A stretch of DNA of 64,000 nt. Origin: Bacteroidota bacterium. Lineage in GTDB: Bacteria; Bacteroidota; Bacteroidia; B-17B0; Aurantibacillaceae. How positions within the stretch are numbered: position 1 is the stretch's first letter; each line of letters starts with the position of its first letter. The notes below the pieces were generated by a model. The model worked only from the letters and a program-made list of their open reading frames with translations, made no database searches and was not told where the DNA came from. Where the stretch lies: the NCBI GenBank assembly GCA_013298715.1, contig JAAFIQ010000001.1:248001-312000 (forward strand). The letters are read 5' to 3'. Positions 59,349 through 64,000 of this stretch are shown piece after piece. The position numbers and the translations under genes are program-made.

Positions 59349-60185
59349 ATGAAAATTATATGTATACTTCTTTTTTTACAACTTTGGTTGCTGCCAATTT
59401 TTAAATCACAAAATGTAAGTGGAATTGTACTAAATTCCTCAACAAAAGAAGAAATTCCTTACGTTGCGGTTGGCATAAAAGGAACAAGTTTTGGCACACT
59501 TAGTAATGAAAAAGGTGTGTTTAGTCTAGATGGAAAATTTAAGGAAATGGATACACTTGTTTTCTCAGGTATGGGTTTTCAGACAGAGTTTATCATTTAT
59601 CACCAAAGTACAAGTAACAAGTTAGATACTGTTTTTTTAAAAGAACAAAACATAGTTTTACCTAACATAGTTGTGTATGCTCCATTAACAAATAGTTCAG
59701 AAATCGGATTTTCAAAAACGAGCGCATCTCGGTCGGTTAATTTTGCTCTTAGCAATGGTATAAATAAAAATGTAGGATCGCAAGTTGGTAAATATTTTAA
59801 ATTTGATAAAGCTACAGAGTTACAAAAATTTTCATTTTACTTAAACGAAAATAATTTTGACACTGTAAAATTTAGAGTTAATGTATTTGATATTGAATCC
59901 AACATACCAAGTAATTTTTTACACTCAGAAGAAATTTTGTTAGAGCTTGTAAATGCAAAGGCTGGGTGGATACAAGTAGATTTAAGTAAATACAAAATTA
60001 GAGTAGATAAACCTGTTGCCCTTTGTTTGGAATGGATTTATGGGGGCAAAAAAGGAAATAAACTCACACTACCAATCTCGTTACCAGTTTTTGGGAGCAA
60101 GCATTTTTATAAATATGGGAGTCAAAATAATTGGAAGGTTTTTGGGAATATGAGTACACCAATGTTACTAACTGTTATGCAATAA
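59349..60185 (+). CDS. Secreted CarboxypepD_reg-like domain protein
   Basis: 278 residues from the ATG at 59349; signal peptide MKIICILLFLQLWLLPIFKSQ. The N-terminal CarboxypepD_reg-like domain (about 22-105) has VSGIVLNSSTKEEIPYVAVG, GTLSNEKGVFSL and LVFSGMGFQ. The C-terminal half is beta-rich (KFSFYLNENNFDTVKFRVNV, LSKYKIRVDKPVALCLEW) and resembles a jelly-roll. There is no barrel, so it is not a TonB receptor. Likely an outer-membrane-surface or periplasmic protein; function unknown. Its stop overlaps the DUF2306 start as TAATG. Confidence 0.8.
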   Translation: MKIICILLFLQLWLLPIFKSQNVSGIVLNSSTKEEIPYVAVGIKGTSFGTLSNEKGVFSLDGKFKEMDTLVFSGMGFQTEFIIYHQSTSNKLDTVFLKEQNIVLPNIVVYAPLTNSSEIGFSKTSASRSVNFALSNGINKNVGSQVGKYFKFDKATELQKFSFYLNENNFDTVKFRVNVFDIESNIPSNFLHSEEILLELVNAKAGWIQVDLSKYKIRVDKPVALCLEWIYGGKKGNKLTLPISLPVFGSKHFYKYGSQNNWKVFGNMSTPMLLTVMQ

Positions 60186-60817
60186 TGAAAAAAGTATTTC
60201 AAGTTATATTAGCCATTTTTGCAGTATTTGTTGGTATTTATCCTGCTATCTATTTTTTCGTGACTAGTAGCTTTGGGTTATTAAGTACAAAATCAGAGTT
60301 AGTTTTAAATTCAACTATTTGGAAAATTTTTTTTTATGCACATATATTTTCTGGAGGAATTGCTCTATTAATTGGATGGATTCAATTTATTAAACGGCTT
60401 AGGGAAAAGCGATTAAAGTTGCACAGAAACATTGGCAAAACTTATGTTTTACTTTGTTTAATTAGTGGCATTTCTGCTTTGGTTATTGCACAAAATGCAA
60501 CTGGTGGTTTAATATCCATACTTGGTTTTTCTTTTCTTGCACTTTTTTGGCTGTACTTTACATATAAAGGATATGTGGCAATAAGACAGAGAGAAATTGT
60601 GAAACATCAAAACTTTATGCTTCTAAGTTATGCTGCCACATTTGCTGCCGTAACACTAAGGATTTGGCTTCCAGTATTGGTGCTAGTAGTTGATGACTTT
60701 TTTCTGGCTTATAAAATTACTGCGTGGGTATGTTGGGTCCCGAACCTTGTTGTTGCATGGCTAATTATAAAGAAAAAATCACTGTTTCATAAAACGTTTC
60801 CCAATCCAATAATCTAA
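60185..60817 (+). CDS. DUF2306 membrane protein
   Basis: 210 residues with six predicted membrane helices. The DUF2306 pattern is visible: HIFSGGIALLIGWIQF, then KLHRNIGKTYVLLCLISG with the conserved HRxxGxxY, HQNFMLLSYAATFAAVTLRI, and a late Trp-rich helix. Function of the family is unknown; the conserved His residues suggest a haem- or quinone-linked integral membrane protein. Start set at the ATG coupled to the previous stop. Its 3' end overlaps the convergent DoxX gene by 39 bases. Confidence 0.8.
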   Translation: MKKVFQVILAIFAVFVGIYPAIYFFVTSSFGLLSTKSELVLNSTIWKIFFYAHIFSGGIALLIGWIQFIKRLREKRLKLHRNIGKTYVLLCLISGISALVIAQNATGGLISILGFSFLALFWLYFTYKGYVAIRQREIVKHQNFMLLSYAATFAAVTLRIWLPVLVLVVDDFFLAYKITAWVCWVPNLVVAWLIIKKKSLFHKTFPNPII

Positions 60818-61219
60818 TCCTAATTTGCCACTACCAAAAGTAAGTAAGGCAAATAACATAAGTAAATAGTATAAAGGAATTTCAAAGCCATTATCGCCCG
60901 CAGCAAAACCATTTGCCCAGTGTGCAGTTTTTATTGCAACAATCATAGTAACAATTAATGCAACAGAAATGTAACGTGTGCCTAAGCCTAGAATTAATAA
61001 AAACACACCTAACATTTCAGTAGTAGCAGCCAAGTATGCATTCAGCTTCGGCGCCACGATACCAATACTTTCAAACCAATCAGCAACCGAGTTCATATCT
61101 TGCCACTTTATTTTCGCAGTTTCGTAAAAACCATAAGCAAGCACTAATCGTAAAGCTAATAAACTAACAGACTGAAAGTTGTTACTTAAATTATTAAATT
61201 TCAATATTAATTTTTTCAT
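60779..61219 (-). CDS. DoxX-family membrane protein (BufX/HvfX-like)
   Basis: 146 residues with four predicted helices (LLALRLVLAYGFYETAKIKW, AATTEMLGVFLLILGLGTRY, VALIVTMIVAIKTAH, YYLLMLFALLTFGSGKLGLD). DoxX-type proteins accompany many bufferin and HvfABC clusters, where they probably assist redox or maturation steps at the membrane. It is the last gene of the minus-strand set precursor, MNIO enzyme, BufC-like, DoxX, 18 bases after the BufC-like stop. Assignment to the RiPP system rests on context. Confidence 0.82.
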   Translation of the reverse strand: MKKLILKFNNLSNNFQSVSLLALRLVLAYGFYETAKIKWQDMNSVADWFESIGIVAPKLNAYLAATTEMLGVFLLILGLGTRYISVALIVTMIVAIKTAHWANGFAAGDNGFEIPLYYLLMLFALLTFGSGKLGLDYWIGKRFMKQ

Positions 61220-61237
61220 GGGGATGTTGTTTATGGT

Positions 61238-61990
61238 TTATGTATTTAAAAATCCGATTATAAATTGCCGCTGTTTTAAATCTTCAATGAAAGTTAACAC
61301 ATGCGATCTTAGAAGATCTAAATCATGAATTTTAAATAGTGTATTCGCCTCACCGAGAATTTCAGAGAGATTTTTCTCATTGGCAATGCCTTCAATAACA
61401 AAAACGTAAAGCATTGATAAATCAATAAACTGCACATTGCCTGTATCTTTTTCGCGATAGATTAATAAAAAATAATTACCTAACTTTTCAATCAAATTAT
61501 CTGTTGGAGAAGTTGTGTGTACAGGATAGTTAAACGAAACTAATTTATGTTCAGGGTTTATTGCGATTGCCTCCTCTAACCAACTGCCTATTTCTTTTGT
61601 TGGTGGATAAGCCAAGTCTTCCATAGTGTGCACTTCCAACTCTAACCATTCAAAATACAAAAGGTCATTTAAAAAAGGTAAGTTTAATTTTTCTGAAATA
61701 TTTTTTTCTTTACAATAATGGTAAAACTCTAAAGGCATTTTCCAAACTTGTGTAGTTTGGCATTTATGTTCTGTAAAAAAAGTATGTGTTAATTCTTGCC
61801 ATTGTTCGTTGGGCAAAAAACTATAAGTTATTGGGTAGGCTGTTTCTAAAGTATCGCAAGCAATATTAAAAACCAACCTTCGGTATTGGTATAAATTATT
61901 TTTGTTACTTAAAATTAAATCTGGTTCAATTCCATTTCTGCAATAGTTGGCCAAATTGGCTTGCTGTGTATAGGTTTCTTCTTTAAGCAT
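61238..61990 (-). CDS. hvfC: BufC/HvfC partner protein (DUF2063 N-terminal domain)
   Basis: 250 residues from the ATG at 61990, which overlaps the MNIO gene stop by eight bases. The DUF2063 domain (about 5-100) shows NLANYCRNG, QYRRLVFNIACDTLETAYPI and QWQELTHTFF. A second helical domain (about 110-250) has LPFLNDLLYFEWLELEVHTM, the usual arrangement of BufC-type partners. In characterised MNIO systems this protein binds the precursor leader and delivers it to the oxygenase. The downstream DoxX and upstream MNIO genes support this role. Confidence 0.82.
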   Translation of the reverse strand: MLKEETYTQQANLANYCRNGIEPDLILSNKNNLYQYRRLVFNIACDTLETAYPITYSFLPNEQWQELTHTFFTEHKCQTTQVWKMPLEFYHYCKEKNISEKLNLPFLNDLLYFEWLELEVHTMEDLAYPPTKEIGSWLEEAIAINPEHKLVSFNYPVHTTSPTDNLIEKLGNYFLLIYREKDTGNVQFIDLSMLYVFVIEGIANEKNLSEILGEANTLFKIHDLDLLRSHVLTFIEDLKQRQFIIGFLNT

Positions 61991-62819
61991 AAACAAAACT
62001 TTTTTTCCAGTTATTGGCAACAAGTTCATCCATGCGGCTTAACTCGTTTTGTAATTCTGCTAATTCAGGCATATTAAAATCTCTTTCCAATAAAACAGGC
62101 ACTGGCTCAATTAATTTTGTGGCGTAATCAAATAATTCAAACACTGGGTCAATAATAGCTTGGCCGTGTGTATCAATTATCAAGCTATCGCTTACTTGCT
62201 CGTGCCCAGCCATGTGTATGTAAGCCACTTGCGAAAGAGGTAACTTTTTAATGAACTCCTTTGCGTTATAATTATGGTTAAAAGAGTTTACGTAAACATT
62301 ATTTACATCCAACAAAAGTTTACACTTGCTCTCATTTACAATAGCAGAAATAAATTCTTCTTCTTTCATTTCTGCAGCTACAGATGTGTAATAGCTTACG
62401 TTTTCAATTACAAGTGGCATTTCTAAAATGTCTTGTACTTGTTTAATGCGTTGTACAATGTGCTTTACTGCATCTTCTCTAAAAGGAATAGGCAATAAAT
62501 CGTAAAGGTGCGCATTATCACATTTACTATAGCTAAGATGTTCGCTATAAATTTTTACGTTGTAACGTTTTAAAAAATGTTTTACTTGTTTTACAAATTC
62601 AACATCCAACTCATCAGGACTACCAATGCTTAGCGATAAGCCATGGCAAGTAATAGTATATTTTTCTGCAGCTTTATCTAATAATTTTTTCCAATAGCCA
62701 CCCATGCCAATCCAGTTTTCTGGCGCCATTTCTATGAAAGCGGGAGTGAGTTCAGTACTTTGCAAAAACTCTTCTGCAAAATCTTTTCTAAAGCCTATAC
62801 CTATTTGGTGTTGTAACAT
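61983..62819 (-). CDS. hvfB: MNIO-family iron oxygenase (DUF692, BufB/HvfB-like)
   Basis: 278 residues, full length. Metal-ligand blocks of the MNIO TIM barrel appear in order: AFIEMAPENWIGMGG, TCHGLSLSIG (His), YSEHLSYS (Glu-His), LVIENVSYY (Glu-Asn), LLLDVNNVYVN (Asp-Asn), YIHMAGHE (His-His), IDTHGQAIIDPVF (Asp-His) and LLERDFNMPEL (Glu-Asp). MNIO enzymes oxidise precursor cysteines to oxazolone/thioamide or thiooxazole groups that bind copper. It follows the Cys-repeat precursor gene across an intrinsic terminator. All catalytic positions look intact. Confidence 0.92.
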   Translation of the reverse strand: MLQHQIGIGFRKDFAEEFLQSTELTPAFIEMAPENWIGMGGYWKKLLDKAAEKYTITCHGLSLSIGSPDELDVEFVKQVKHFLKRYNVKIYSEHLSYSKCDNAHLYDLLPIPFREDAVKHIVQRIKQVQDILEMPLVIENVSYYTSVAAEMKEEEFISAIVNESKCKLLLDVNNVYVNSFNHNYNAKEFIKKLPLSQVAYIHMAGHEQVSDSLIIDTHGQAIIDPVFELFDYATKLIEPVPVLLERDFNMPELAELQNELSRMDELVANNWKKSFVYA

Positions 62820-62841
62820 AAATTTATATGAGAATAAAAAA

Positions 62842-62866
62842 ACCCTTCAAAACGTATTTGAAGGGT
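62842..62866 (-). terminator. Intrinsic terminator between RiPP precursor and MNIO gene
   Basis: Perfect 10-bp stem ACCCTTCAAA/TTTGAAGGGT with a five-base loop, followed on the minus strand by T7 (62841-62835). It lies between the precursor stop and the MNIO start and should limit read-through, giving more precursor than enzyme. An A-run on the other side makes it weakly bidirectional. Confidence 0.85.
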
Positions 62867-62885
62867 AATTTTTTTTGTGATTAAA

Positions 62886-63233
62886 TTAGTGAGGTTTTTT
62901 TTCTGTAGATTTTTTTTCTCCACATTTACCTTCTCCACACTTACCATCTTTAGCTTTTTTCTCTCCGCATTTTGCATCTTTAGCTTTTTTCTCGCCACAT
63001 TTTGCATCTTTAGCTTTTTTCTCGCCACATTTTGCATCTTTTGATTTAGTTGCATCTGTAGTTTCAGCTTTTTTCTCGCCGCAAGCAGCTTCAATAGATT
63101 TTACTAAAGATGTACGAACTTCGCCAGCAGTGCCTAAAGCATTGTAGTTTAATAAACTTGAAGCGTTAATAGCGCTAGCGCTCATTAATGCACCTGCAAT
63201 AATAGATGCAGTTAAGGTTGATTTTTTTTCCAT
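62886..63233 (-). CDS. hvfA: Putative bufferin/HvfA-like RiPP precursor with six Cys-Gly-Glu motifs
   Basis: 115 residues from the ATG at 63233. The leader (1-45) combines a signal-peptide-like helix (STLTASIIAGALMSASAINA) and a segment LLNYNALGTAGEVRTSL typical of HvfA/BufA leaders. The core has Cys at 51, 69, 79, 89, 99 and 103, each in CGE. Four lie in a ten-residue period (KCGEKKAKDA-like), and the last two form DGKCGEGKCGEKK, containing the EGKCG motif of HvfA-type metallophores. The rest is Lys-rich. Neighbouring MNIO, BufC-like and DoxX genes make post-translational cysteine modification and copper binding the likely role. It lies downstream of truB by 130 bases. Confidence 0.82.
   Translation of the reverse strand: MEKKSTLTASIIAGALMSASAINASSLLNYNALGTAGEVRTSLVKSIEAACGEKKAETTDATKSKDAKCGEKKAKDAKCGEKKAKDAKCGEKKAKDGKCGEGKCGEKKSTEKKPH
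62946..63035 (-). repeat. Three 30-bp tandem repeats coding the CGEKKAKDxK decapeptide
   Basis: Units at 62946-62975, 62976-63005 and 63006-63035 are nearly identical; units 2 and 3 match exactly and unit 1 differs at two positions. Each codes one copy of the ten-residue Cys-Gly-Glu core repeat. Unit number could change by slippage, which would alter how many modified cysteines the peptide carries. Confidence 0.85.
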
Positions 63234-63363
63234 GTTTTTAATTGTTTTGTTAGTGAATAATAAATATACGCTCAAAAACACACCAATAGATTTCCACAAG
63301 CGTTAAAATTACGTTAATTTAGCATAACATGCTGATAATTAATGGGTTTAATTTTTAATTCGC

Positions 63364-64000
63364 TTATAAACCTCTTAGAGTTTCTACAAAATCTGGAATT
63401 GAAGACGCGTTTTCAATATTAAAATCGCCTATTTTGGTTCTTCTTAAACTTATTAAATGTGCACCACTGTTAAGTGCCAAGCCAAAATCGCGTGCAATGC
63501 TTCTTATATAAGTGCCTTTGGTACATTGAATCTTAAAAGAAACTTCAAACTCTTTTATTTCGGTAATTTCAAATAGTTTTATAGTTATTGGTCGTGCTTT
63601 TAATTCTACTTCTTTACCAGCTCTTGCAAGATCATAAGCGCGCTTACCATTTACCATAACAGCACTAAAAATTGGCGGCACTTGTTCTTGCTCGCCCATA
63701 AATTTCTTAGTAGTTTGCAAAATCAAATCATCTGTAATATGTTCTGTAGGAAATATTTTATCAATAGGTTTTTCTAAATCGTAACAAGGGGTTGTTGCGC
63801 CTAGCTTTATTGTACCCGTGTACTCTTTATCTAGTCCCATTAACTCGTTAATAGTTTTCGTTTTTTTTCCAGTACAGACTACTAAAAGTCCTGTAGCCAA
63901 AGGATCTAGCGTGCCAGCGTGTCCTACTTTTGGTTTTGTTTTAATTGTATCTAGTACTAAAGATGGGTGATGTTTAATACTATGTTTTATTTTATTCACT
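63364..64000 (-). CDS. truB: tRNA pseudouridine(55) synthase TruB, 5' part outside window
   Basis: About 212 residues visible; the N-terminus lies beyond the right edge. The catalytic motif KVGHAGTLDPLATG (with the active Asp), ELMGLDKEYTGTIKLG, the FMGEQEQVPPIFSAVMVNGK block, RAYDLARAG and the late CTKGTYIRSIARDFG are clear TruB signatures. It converts U55 in the T-loop of tRNAs. The short C-terminal domain ends LRRTKIGDFNIENASSI. The RiPP precursor follows on the same strand after a 130-base gap that holds AGCAT/ATGCT arms at 63321-63333. Confidence 0.93.
   Translation of the reverse strand, partial: VNKIKHSIKHHPSLVLDTIKTKPKVGHAGTLDPLATGLLVVCTGKKTKTINELMGLDKEYTGTIKLGATTPCYDLEKPIDKIFPTEHITDDLILQTTKKFMGEQEQVPPIFSAVMVNGKRAYDLARAGKEVELKARPITIKLFEITEIKEFEVSFKIQCTKGTYIRSIARDFGLALNSGAHLISLRRTKIGDFNIENASSIPDFVETLRGL

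Follow-up and report, generated by a model that had tools for sequence, protein, structure and literature searches.

Several described gene clusters for ribosomally synthesized and post-translationally modified peptides (RiPPs) depend on a multinuclear non-heme iron-dependent oxidative enzyme (MNIO), and each resembles in part the locus described here, which occupies positions 60779-63233 of a 64,000-nucleotide window (the whole stretch of DNA analyzed) on contig JAAFIQ010000001.1 of a Bacteroidota bacterium. First, the HvfABCX system of Haemophilus influenzae, which makes oxazolin, combines a precursor with a signal sequence and six modifiable cysteines, an MNIO, a partner with a RiPP recognition element (RRE) and the DoxX-like HvfX (PMC13419390; this and all other papers are cited from excerpts). 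Second, the captophorins, including fontiphorin made by FonABC, share Lys-Cys pentads and an MNIO with a DUF2063 partner, and their characterized members come from Pseudomonadota (PMC13097082). Third, the bufferins (PMC12452194) and the operons controlled by sigma-F and NrsF in Caulobacter (PMC3511200) offer the same MNIO-DUF2063-DoxX core and an extracytoplasmic function (ECF) sigma factor with a Cys-dependent anti-sigma factor. Finally, the Neisseria genes NGO1944-NGO1948 bring together an ECF sigma factor, DUF2063, DUF692, a periplasmic protein and DoxX (PMC2954202). The EGKCG group, to which the HvfA precursors belong, counts about 2,000 proteins, mostly from Pseudomonadota (PMC12452194). 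We are fairly confident that, as a whole, the locus is best explained as an HvfABCX operon for a copper peptide whose sigma switch has been deleted and which would be expressed by other means.

The hvfABCX cluster and its MNIO

From position 63233 downward, four genes with intact frames follow one another on the minus strand: hvfA (62886-63233, 115 amino acids), hvfB (61983-62819, 278 amino acids), hvfC (61238-61990, 250 amino acids) and hvfX (60779-61219, 146 amino acids). hvfC overlaps hvfB by 8 nt, and an alternative in-frame ATG at 62029 would lengthen HvfC to 263 amino acids. This order on one strand of a six-CGE precursor, an MNIO with all ligand motifs, a DUF2063 partner and a DoxX gene had been read in the first-pass annotation, which proposed to check it against family models and MNIO phylogenies; every component was confirmed, and both checks favor an Hvf assignment. 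HvfB exceeds the cut-off of the NCBIfam equivalog NF003818 (391.7 bits versus 360), belongs to Pfam PF05114 with an E-value of 2e-100 and matches 3bww among PDB sequences (E 2.2e-68). HvfX passes its own equivalog NF050144 (117.4 bits, cut-off 80) and reaches 72.2 bits against Pfam DoxX, and the precursor passes the KCGExKCG domain NF050137 (27.2 bits, cut-off 19.5). The methanobactin equivalog MbnB (TIGR04159) is far from reached by the MNIO (49 bits, cut-off 325), as are the cut-offs of the ApyH and ChrH models.

Relatives of the locus were drawn from the genus, from genomes of the phylum and from a scan of contig collections (the best 80 of 574 confirmed matches were kept), near-identical loci being merged before counting. 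In 85 of the 89 distinct DUF2063-type loci, the MNIO gene is likewise preceded by a precursor gene and followed by a DUF2063 gene; given this recurrence and the PF05114 and HvfB scores, the association is not due to chance. The precursor filter returned nothing for L034, L071 and L131, the last two of which begin just 5' of the MNIO gene, and in L105 the precursor lies downstream of the MNIO gene, so that this locus enters the precursor set and stays outside the gap and promoter counts below.

In a tree of 58 MNIO rows, the 31 Bacteroidota HvfB rows fall on one side of a branch (support 87/88); their neighbor, with support 98/94, is an HvfB from an Acinetobacter plasmid, the one non-Bacteroidota HvfB included. 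Placed away from them are the MNIOs associated with DUF2282 (three rows), one other BufB, eight partnerless Bacteroidota MNIOs and further MNIOs; several branches are long, the deep part is unsure, and the labels BufB1, BufB2 and "other" are our own assignments. Nine residues are invariant in all 84 Bacteroidota HvfB rows (H59, H94, E139, D171, H202, D216, H218, E245 and D247), R11 is kept in 83, and all 84 have Lys or Arg at position 12 and Phe or Tyr at 248. The invariant His, Asp and Glu positions of MNIOs bind iron or act as a base. Such roles are likewise assigned in FonB, where Arg15, Arg16, Asp249 and Phe250 are the Lys-Cys substrate residues (PMC13097082). Matched by motif, these would correspond to R11, K12 (a Lys replacing the second Arg), D247 and F248 of the present enzyme. 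Among MNIO RiPPs, the cluster is a member of the HvfABCX branch (oxazolin/captophorin, EGKCG) and not a bufferin proper.

HvfC is a DUF2063 protein by Pfam (52.4 bits, cut-off 27.2) with an NGO1945_C domain (34.4 bits, cut-off 27) and a match to 3dee among PDB sequences (E 1.4e-4). Its AlphaFold model (mean pLDDT 84.9) was matched by Foldseek to 3dee (E 1.3e-7, TMt 0.74), to TglHI (E 9.5e-6) and, weakly, to the RRE protein TbiB1 (E 0.095, probability 1.00). These model matches support an RRE-type NGO1945 fold and a predicted leader-binding role for HvfC.

Absence of the sigma/anti-sigma pair

Just upstream of hvfA, two protein families recur among the relatives, an ECF sigma factor and a Cys-rich protein of 76-117 amino acids with the pattern C...HxxxCxxC. 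Those sigma proteins that were scanned score above the cut-off of Pfam Sigma70_r2; the small Cys-rich proteins fall below the zf-HC2 cut-off or have no zf-HC2 match, and their Acinetobacter counterpart passes. From its position and pattern, we infer that the small protein is the anti-sigma factor. As a small protein of this kind, the congeners' putative anti-sigma factor differs from the membrane-bound NrsF (PMC3511200). ECF control of MNIO operons has a precedent in sigma-F/NrsF of Caulobacter (PMC3511200), a sigma gene adjoins NGO1945-1948 in Neisseria (PMC2954202), unlike in the window, and sigma genes were reported in Buf1 and not in Buf2 clusters (PMC12452194). Among the papers listed by title and abstract, none concerned the regulation of hvf genes in Bacteroidota; members from this phylum may well be present in published data sets, whose figures and supplements lay outside the scope of that search, and the main text of PMC13097082 never uses the string "bacteroid".

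Profile searches covered the 76 loci, out of 85, whose upstream sequence extends over 1200 nt or more and found both genes upstream of hvfA in 57, sigma only in one and neither in 18, the present locus included. In L126, the two genes lie downstream of the hvf genes. In two sister species, G036 and G014, truB is followed by the sigma gene, the anti-sigma gene and hvfABCX; here truB, on the same strand from position 63364 (and complete in L002), is followed after a gap of 130 nt (63234-63363, minus strand) by hvfABCX. Because both sisters share the truB neighbor and keep the two genes, the sigma/anti-sigma module was probably deleted in the lineage of the window, where hvfB and hvfC appear still to be under constraint: hvfB is 80.6% identical to that of G036 and 81.9% to that of G014, against 82.3% between the sisters, and for hvfC the similarity to the sisters is about that between them. 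The anti-sigma profile detects its target in all 14 HvfB-bearing congeners, each time with an E-value of 1e-27 or better and on the same contig as hvfB; weaker matches turn up in three congeners that lack hvf and in some genomes from outside the genus. In the genome to which the window belongs (one assembly, 99.99% complete), the profile found nothing at E<=0.001, the best score (E 0.0086) lying within a 329-amino-acid frame. The sister sigma protein used as query retrieved eight ECF-like matches in this genome, the best of which by E-value has 28% identity, and none is convincing as an orthologue.

A putative promoter that often accompanies the regulators

A motif of the form TGTAA[GCA]-N14-19-CG[TA] lies near the start of hvfA in 57 of 85 loci, against 3.0 expected from mononucleotide shuffles; the spacer is 16 nt in 51 of 53 training sites and 17 nt in the other two. 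It is of the same class as the sites of Bacillus subtilis SigX, with TGTAAC at -35 and CGWC at -10 (PMC12153292). The strict form TGTAAG-N16-CG[TA]C mostly accompanies the regulators, being present in 43 of 58 loci that have an upstream regulator and 4 of 18 that have none (Fisher p 1.6e-4, a value to be read with caution as the loci are related), and L126 still has the motif before hvfA. Some regulator-bearing loci carry variants such as TGTCAGG. These patterns were chosen after inspection of the same loci; the position weight matrix (PWM) was applied with each locus left out in turn, its shuffle control was not. In many Bacteroidota, the ECF sigma factor would pair with a TGTAAG-N16-CG[TA]C promoter of the hvf operon.

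Upstream of the present hvfA, the best PWM score is 2.5, rank 69 of 85 and within the range of the shuffles, whose 95th percentile is 7.5, and no TGTAAG stands at the 16-nt spacing. What the window does keep is CGTATATTTATT (63259-63270, minus strand), a 12-mer found identically upstream of hvfA in L056 and L058, which could be a remnant of an ECF -10 element in what is an AT-rich stretch. A scan for sigma-70 promoters was uninformative (10 found, 11.6 expected).

The precursor and its repeats

Read by eye, the N-terminus of HvfA has a basic start, a hydrophobic stretch and an AINA/S site, as in a signal sequence; it is followed by the leader LGTAGEVR and by six cysteines, all within CGE, with spacings of 18, 10, 10, 10 and 5 residues, a picture to which the NF050137 match and an alignment with 12 relatives contribute. 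The decapeptide units are encoded by a 30-bp tandem array at 62945-63041 on the minus strand (Tandem Repeats Finder: period 30, 3.2 copies, 97% match). In contrast to H. influenzae HvfA, which has three AEGKCGEGKCG motifs and a different leader (PMC13419390), the present precursor consists mostly of single-Cys decapeptides with one KCGEGKCG pair, and its type of leader is common in Bacteroidota: an LGSGxEVR-like motif is present in 81 of the 84 distinct precursors gathered.

The context of the cysteines is far more constant than their arrangement. Among 465 core cysteines located after residue 39 of these 84 precursors, Glu or Asp stands at -3 in 454, Lys at -1 in 408 and Gly at +1 in 454, so that the near-constant substrate feature in Bacteroidota is [E/D]xKCG around each Cys, with spacing and repeat number free. 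Cysteines number 3 to 9 per precursor (4-6 in 65 of 84), and the steps between them are of 5 residues in 184 cases, 10 in 37, 14 in 16, 18 in 15, 17 in 11 and 11 in 9, besides others; a few of the long steps begin at a signal-region Cys. Among the 17 precursors that come from the genus and its closest relatives, 15 contain decapeptide units, which reappear in the more distant L081, and all 17 contain the pair KCGEGKCGEKK; periods of 11 residues characterize L105, L119 and the Acinetobacter plasmid precursor, with longer ones elsewhere. In L105, whose precursor lies at +1998 from the MNIO, seven cysteines follow one another at intervals of exactly 11 residues.

One may view the decapeptide as a pair of pentads, the second of which would have lost its Cys (DAKCG-EKKAK). 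Since FonBC modified a two-repeat and not a one-repeat substrate (PMC13097082), sparse single sites are uncertain as substrates. Residues 53-115 of HvfA have pLDDT below 50 (from a shallow alignment), and the unmodified core is predicted to be disordered, in contrast to 17-residue repeats, for which a beta-helix is reported (PMC12452194). In view of the varied spacings of the 84 precursors and of this predicted disorder, the decapeptide as a fixed structural lattice is rejected.

A similar locus outside the phylum is that of an Acinetobacter ursingii plasmid (L136), which shares an HvfB above the cut-off, single-Cys Lys-rich repeats, sigma and zf-HC2 genes within the cluster and a hairpin in the hvfA-hvfB gap (from folding without a shuffle control). 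It differs by its 11-residue repeat, by sigma genes placed after the partner gene and, by eye, by the lack of an LGSGxEVR-like leader. The first-pass view that a Lys-rich repeat core sets the present precursor apart from the well-studied proteobacterial ones is weakened by this plasmid precursor, whose period was counted by eye: such single-Cys repeats are not peculiar to Bacteroidota.

A hairpin between hvfA and hvfB

The 66-nt gap between hvfA and hvfB contains a terminator-like hairpin (62842-62866, minus strand) with a 10-pair stem followed by a T run. Its predicted folding energy is -16 kcal/mol, with a z-score of -5.4 (-4.5 with other shuffles); a terminator scan of the region gave 3 sites of this type against 2.0 expected. 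The gap is usually structured in the other loci as well. Out of 83 gaps, 73 of at least 30 nt were folded, the 10 shorter ones being left aside, and 63 of these 73, including the present one, have z below -2.5. Similarly, the intrinsic-terminator pattern is present in 28 of 83 gaps (0.2 expected from mononucleotide shuffles). In loci of at least 6 kb, 37 of 44 hvfA-hvfB gaps of 40-200 nt have z below -2.5, versus 15 of 101 other codirectional gaps, for which open reading frames came from a greedy model rather than a gene caller. The stem sequence itself varies among species. We infer that the hairpin causes partial termination or protects the 3' end of the hvfA transcript, which would raise precursor over enzyme. 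The words "hairpin" and "terminator" are absent from the main text of two landscape papers.

Neighboring genes and other MNIO loci

Besides hvfA, hvfB, hvfC, hvfX and the two regulators, no cluster of neighbors occurred in more than 10 loci (850 open reading frames from 77 loci; clusters were left unannotated and no search was aimed at copper genes). In the window, the opposite strand carries a gene for a DUF2306 membrane protein (60185-60817) that shares 39 nt with the end of hvfX and is regarded as unrelated to the cluster. An extra gene separates hvfC from hvfX in L100, L130, L069, L079 and L088. As regards a mobile origin, no phage match was found, and the 354 plasmid records matching the MNIO all have less than 60% identity. 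A sample of 395 genomes of the phylum yielded seven rows above the HvfB cut-off, own genome included.

Other MNIO genes were encountered in the survey. L037-L047 are Bacteroidota MNIOs without an HvfC-like partner, with Trp at 246 and no Phe at 248, for which the filters found no precursor in short loci; the eight of them used for the tree group together on a single branch (98/93). A second, longer MNIO (frames of 372-401 amino acids) occurs in six congeners (L023-L028), and the three that the tree includes are distant from HvfB. L022 (G025:C243, in a congener) and L142 have MNIO genes beside other kinds of protein, a TIGR04222 neighbor in L142 and a neighbor ending in a GGCGGC-type run in L022, and represent a different class of MNIO substrates. 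L138, on Pseudomonas putida plasmid pKF715B, typed conjugative, is a BufB-type MNIO cluster near a copper-resistance multicopper oxidase gene.

Proposed mechanism and alternatives

We propose that HvfB, as an iron MNIO, and HvfC, as the RRE partner binding the leader, would turn the Cys of every [E/D]xKCG site in HvfA into a 5-thiooxazole. Once exported, the largely unfolded peptide would bind copper in the periplasm or outside the cell, with HvfX as an accessory membrane protein, and the hairpin after hvfA would make the mRNA of the precursor more abundant than that of the enzyme. The first-pass annotation further predicted a binding capacity that would scale with the number of repeats. In many Bacteroidota, a dedicated ECF sigma factor, held by its small Cys-rich anti-sigma factor, would turn the operon on at the TGTAAG-N16-CG[TA]C promoter. 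In the lineage of the window, this control module would have been deleted between truB and hvfA together with the -35 half of the promoter, and the constrained biosynthetic genes would be expressed another way, by read-through from truB or from a new promoter. A metal-binding product is likely, and its ligands are probably 5-thiooxazoles for copper: the first-pass annotation had left the choice between oxazolone/thioamide and thiooxazole, and the product of the HvfB/EGKCG branch is assigned as 5-thiooxazole, not oxazolone/thioamide (PMC13097082, PMC13419390).

Several points weigh against this scheme. The pair is also missing upstream at 17 further loci of the 76, so that its absence here is not unique, and another ECF sigma factor of the genome could serve the operon. 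The truB-hvfA junction is known from a single assembly. hvfX is more diverged here (56.2 and 53.5% identity to the sisters, versus 61.3% between them). HvfC just misses the NCBIfam equivalog NF050145 (126.2 bits, cut-off 142), and the precursor, aligned over positions 1-96 of 96, fails the HvfA equivalog NF050188 (23.3 bits, cut-off 95); having passed NF050137, it is therefore an HvfA-family precursor and not an HvfA equivalog. As for the promoter, the PWM at the 95th percentile of the shuffles gives a weaker contrast (55 of 65 versus 9 of 20, loci with little upstream sequence included), four regulator-less loci, one of them L126, keep the strict motif and 15 regulator-bearing loci lack it, so that there is no one-to-one pairing. 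Beyond the gene identities, the absence of the module from this assembly, its presence in the sisters and the promoter and hairpin statistics, the scheme is a prediction; this holds for the chemistry, for copper binding and export, for the pairing of sigma factor and promoter, for the parts played by anti-sigma factor and hairpin and for the new mode of expression.

Other explanations were considered. That the function of the peptide lies in a different stress, be it from other metals or from oxidants, copper being incidental, is unlikely: sigma-F of Caulobacter, which controls operons of such a kind, responds to chromium and cadmium (PMC3511200), and the proteins adjoining hvfX in L100 and L130 are, by eye, thioredoxin- or peroxiredoxin-like, against which stands the evidence of a copper role for 5-thiooxazole peptides with the same pentad (PMC13097082). 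It is quite unlikely that the sigma/anti-sigma pair was never present at this locus, having been gained by the sisters, or that the cluster was inserted anew behind truB. The hvf genes are indeed patchy in the genus, with HvfB-type matches in 14 of 36 congeners, but the truB-hvf synteny shared by two pair-bearing sisters, the occurrence of the pair upstream of hvfA at 57 of the 76 loci surveyed more widely and the remaining CGTATATTTATT all speak against such a history. Decay of the operon following loss of its regulators, which would fit the missing pair and promoter motif and the somewhat more diverged hvfX, is very unlikely in view of the four intact frames, of hvfB and hvfC conserved as between the two sisters, of the HvfB residues kept and of the clean repeat array. 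A bufferin proper (BufA/BufB/BufC, with a DUF2282 or 6-Cys precursor and its own type of MNIO), despite the identical gene order and a BufB score of 282.3 bits, is rejected as extremely unlikely on family cut-offs (310 for BufB), on a precursor with a core predicted to be unfolded and no DUF2282 match at E<=1 in Pfam (the 6/12-Cys Buf2 profile lay outside the libraries used), on R11-K12 and F248 of the Lys-Cys type and on the tree, which groups the MNIO with the Acinetobacter HvfB and away from the three DUF2282-associated MNIOs and the other BufB, so that from the first-pass label "Bufferin/HvfA-like" the MNIO/DUF2063 RiPP of HvfA kind stands and the bufferin does not.

Concluding remarks

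The characterized thiooxazole copper peptides found in print are from Pseudomonadota, and the present data add dozens of members from Bacteroidota, for which they propose a specific promoter and sigma pair. Beyond what the first-pass annotation had noted, the locus has a hairpin after hvfA and lacks the sigma/anti-sigma pair, and its decapeptide is one of many spacings used in the phylum. Whether the switch as a whole was cleanly deleted from biosynthetic genes still under selection, so that a stress-induced copper peptide came under constitutive or truB/housekeeping control, is in our view an even call. The window species resembles a natural knockout of the switch, and comparison with its sisters could test expression, metal response and fitness. 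If true, the locus would represent a natural rewiring of a self-contained sigma/anti-sigma metal-response unit typical of the hvf operons of Bacteroidota.

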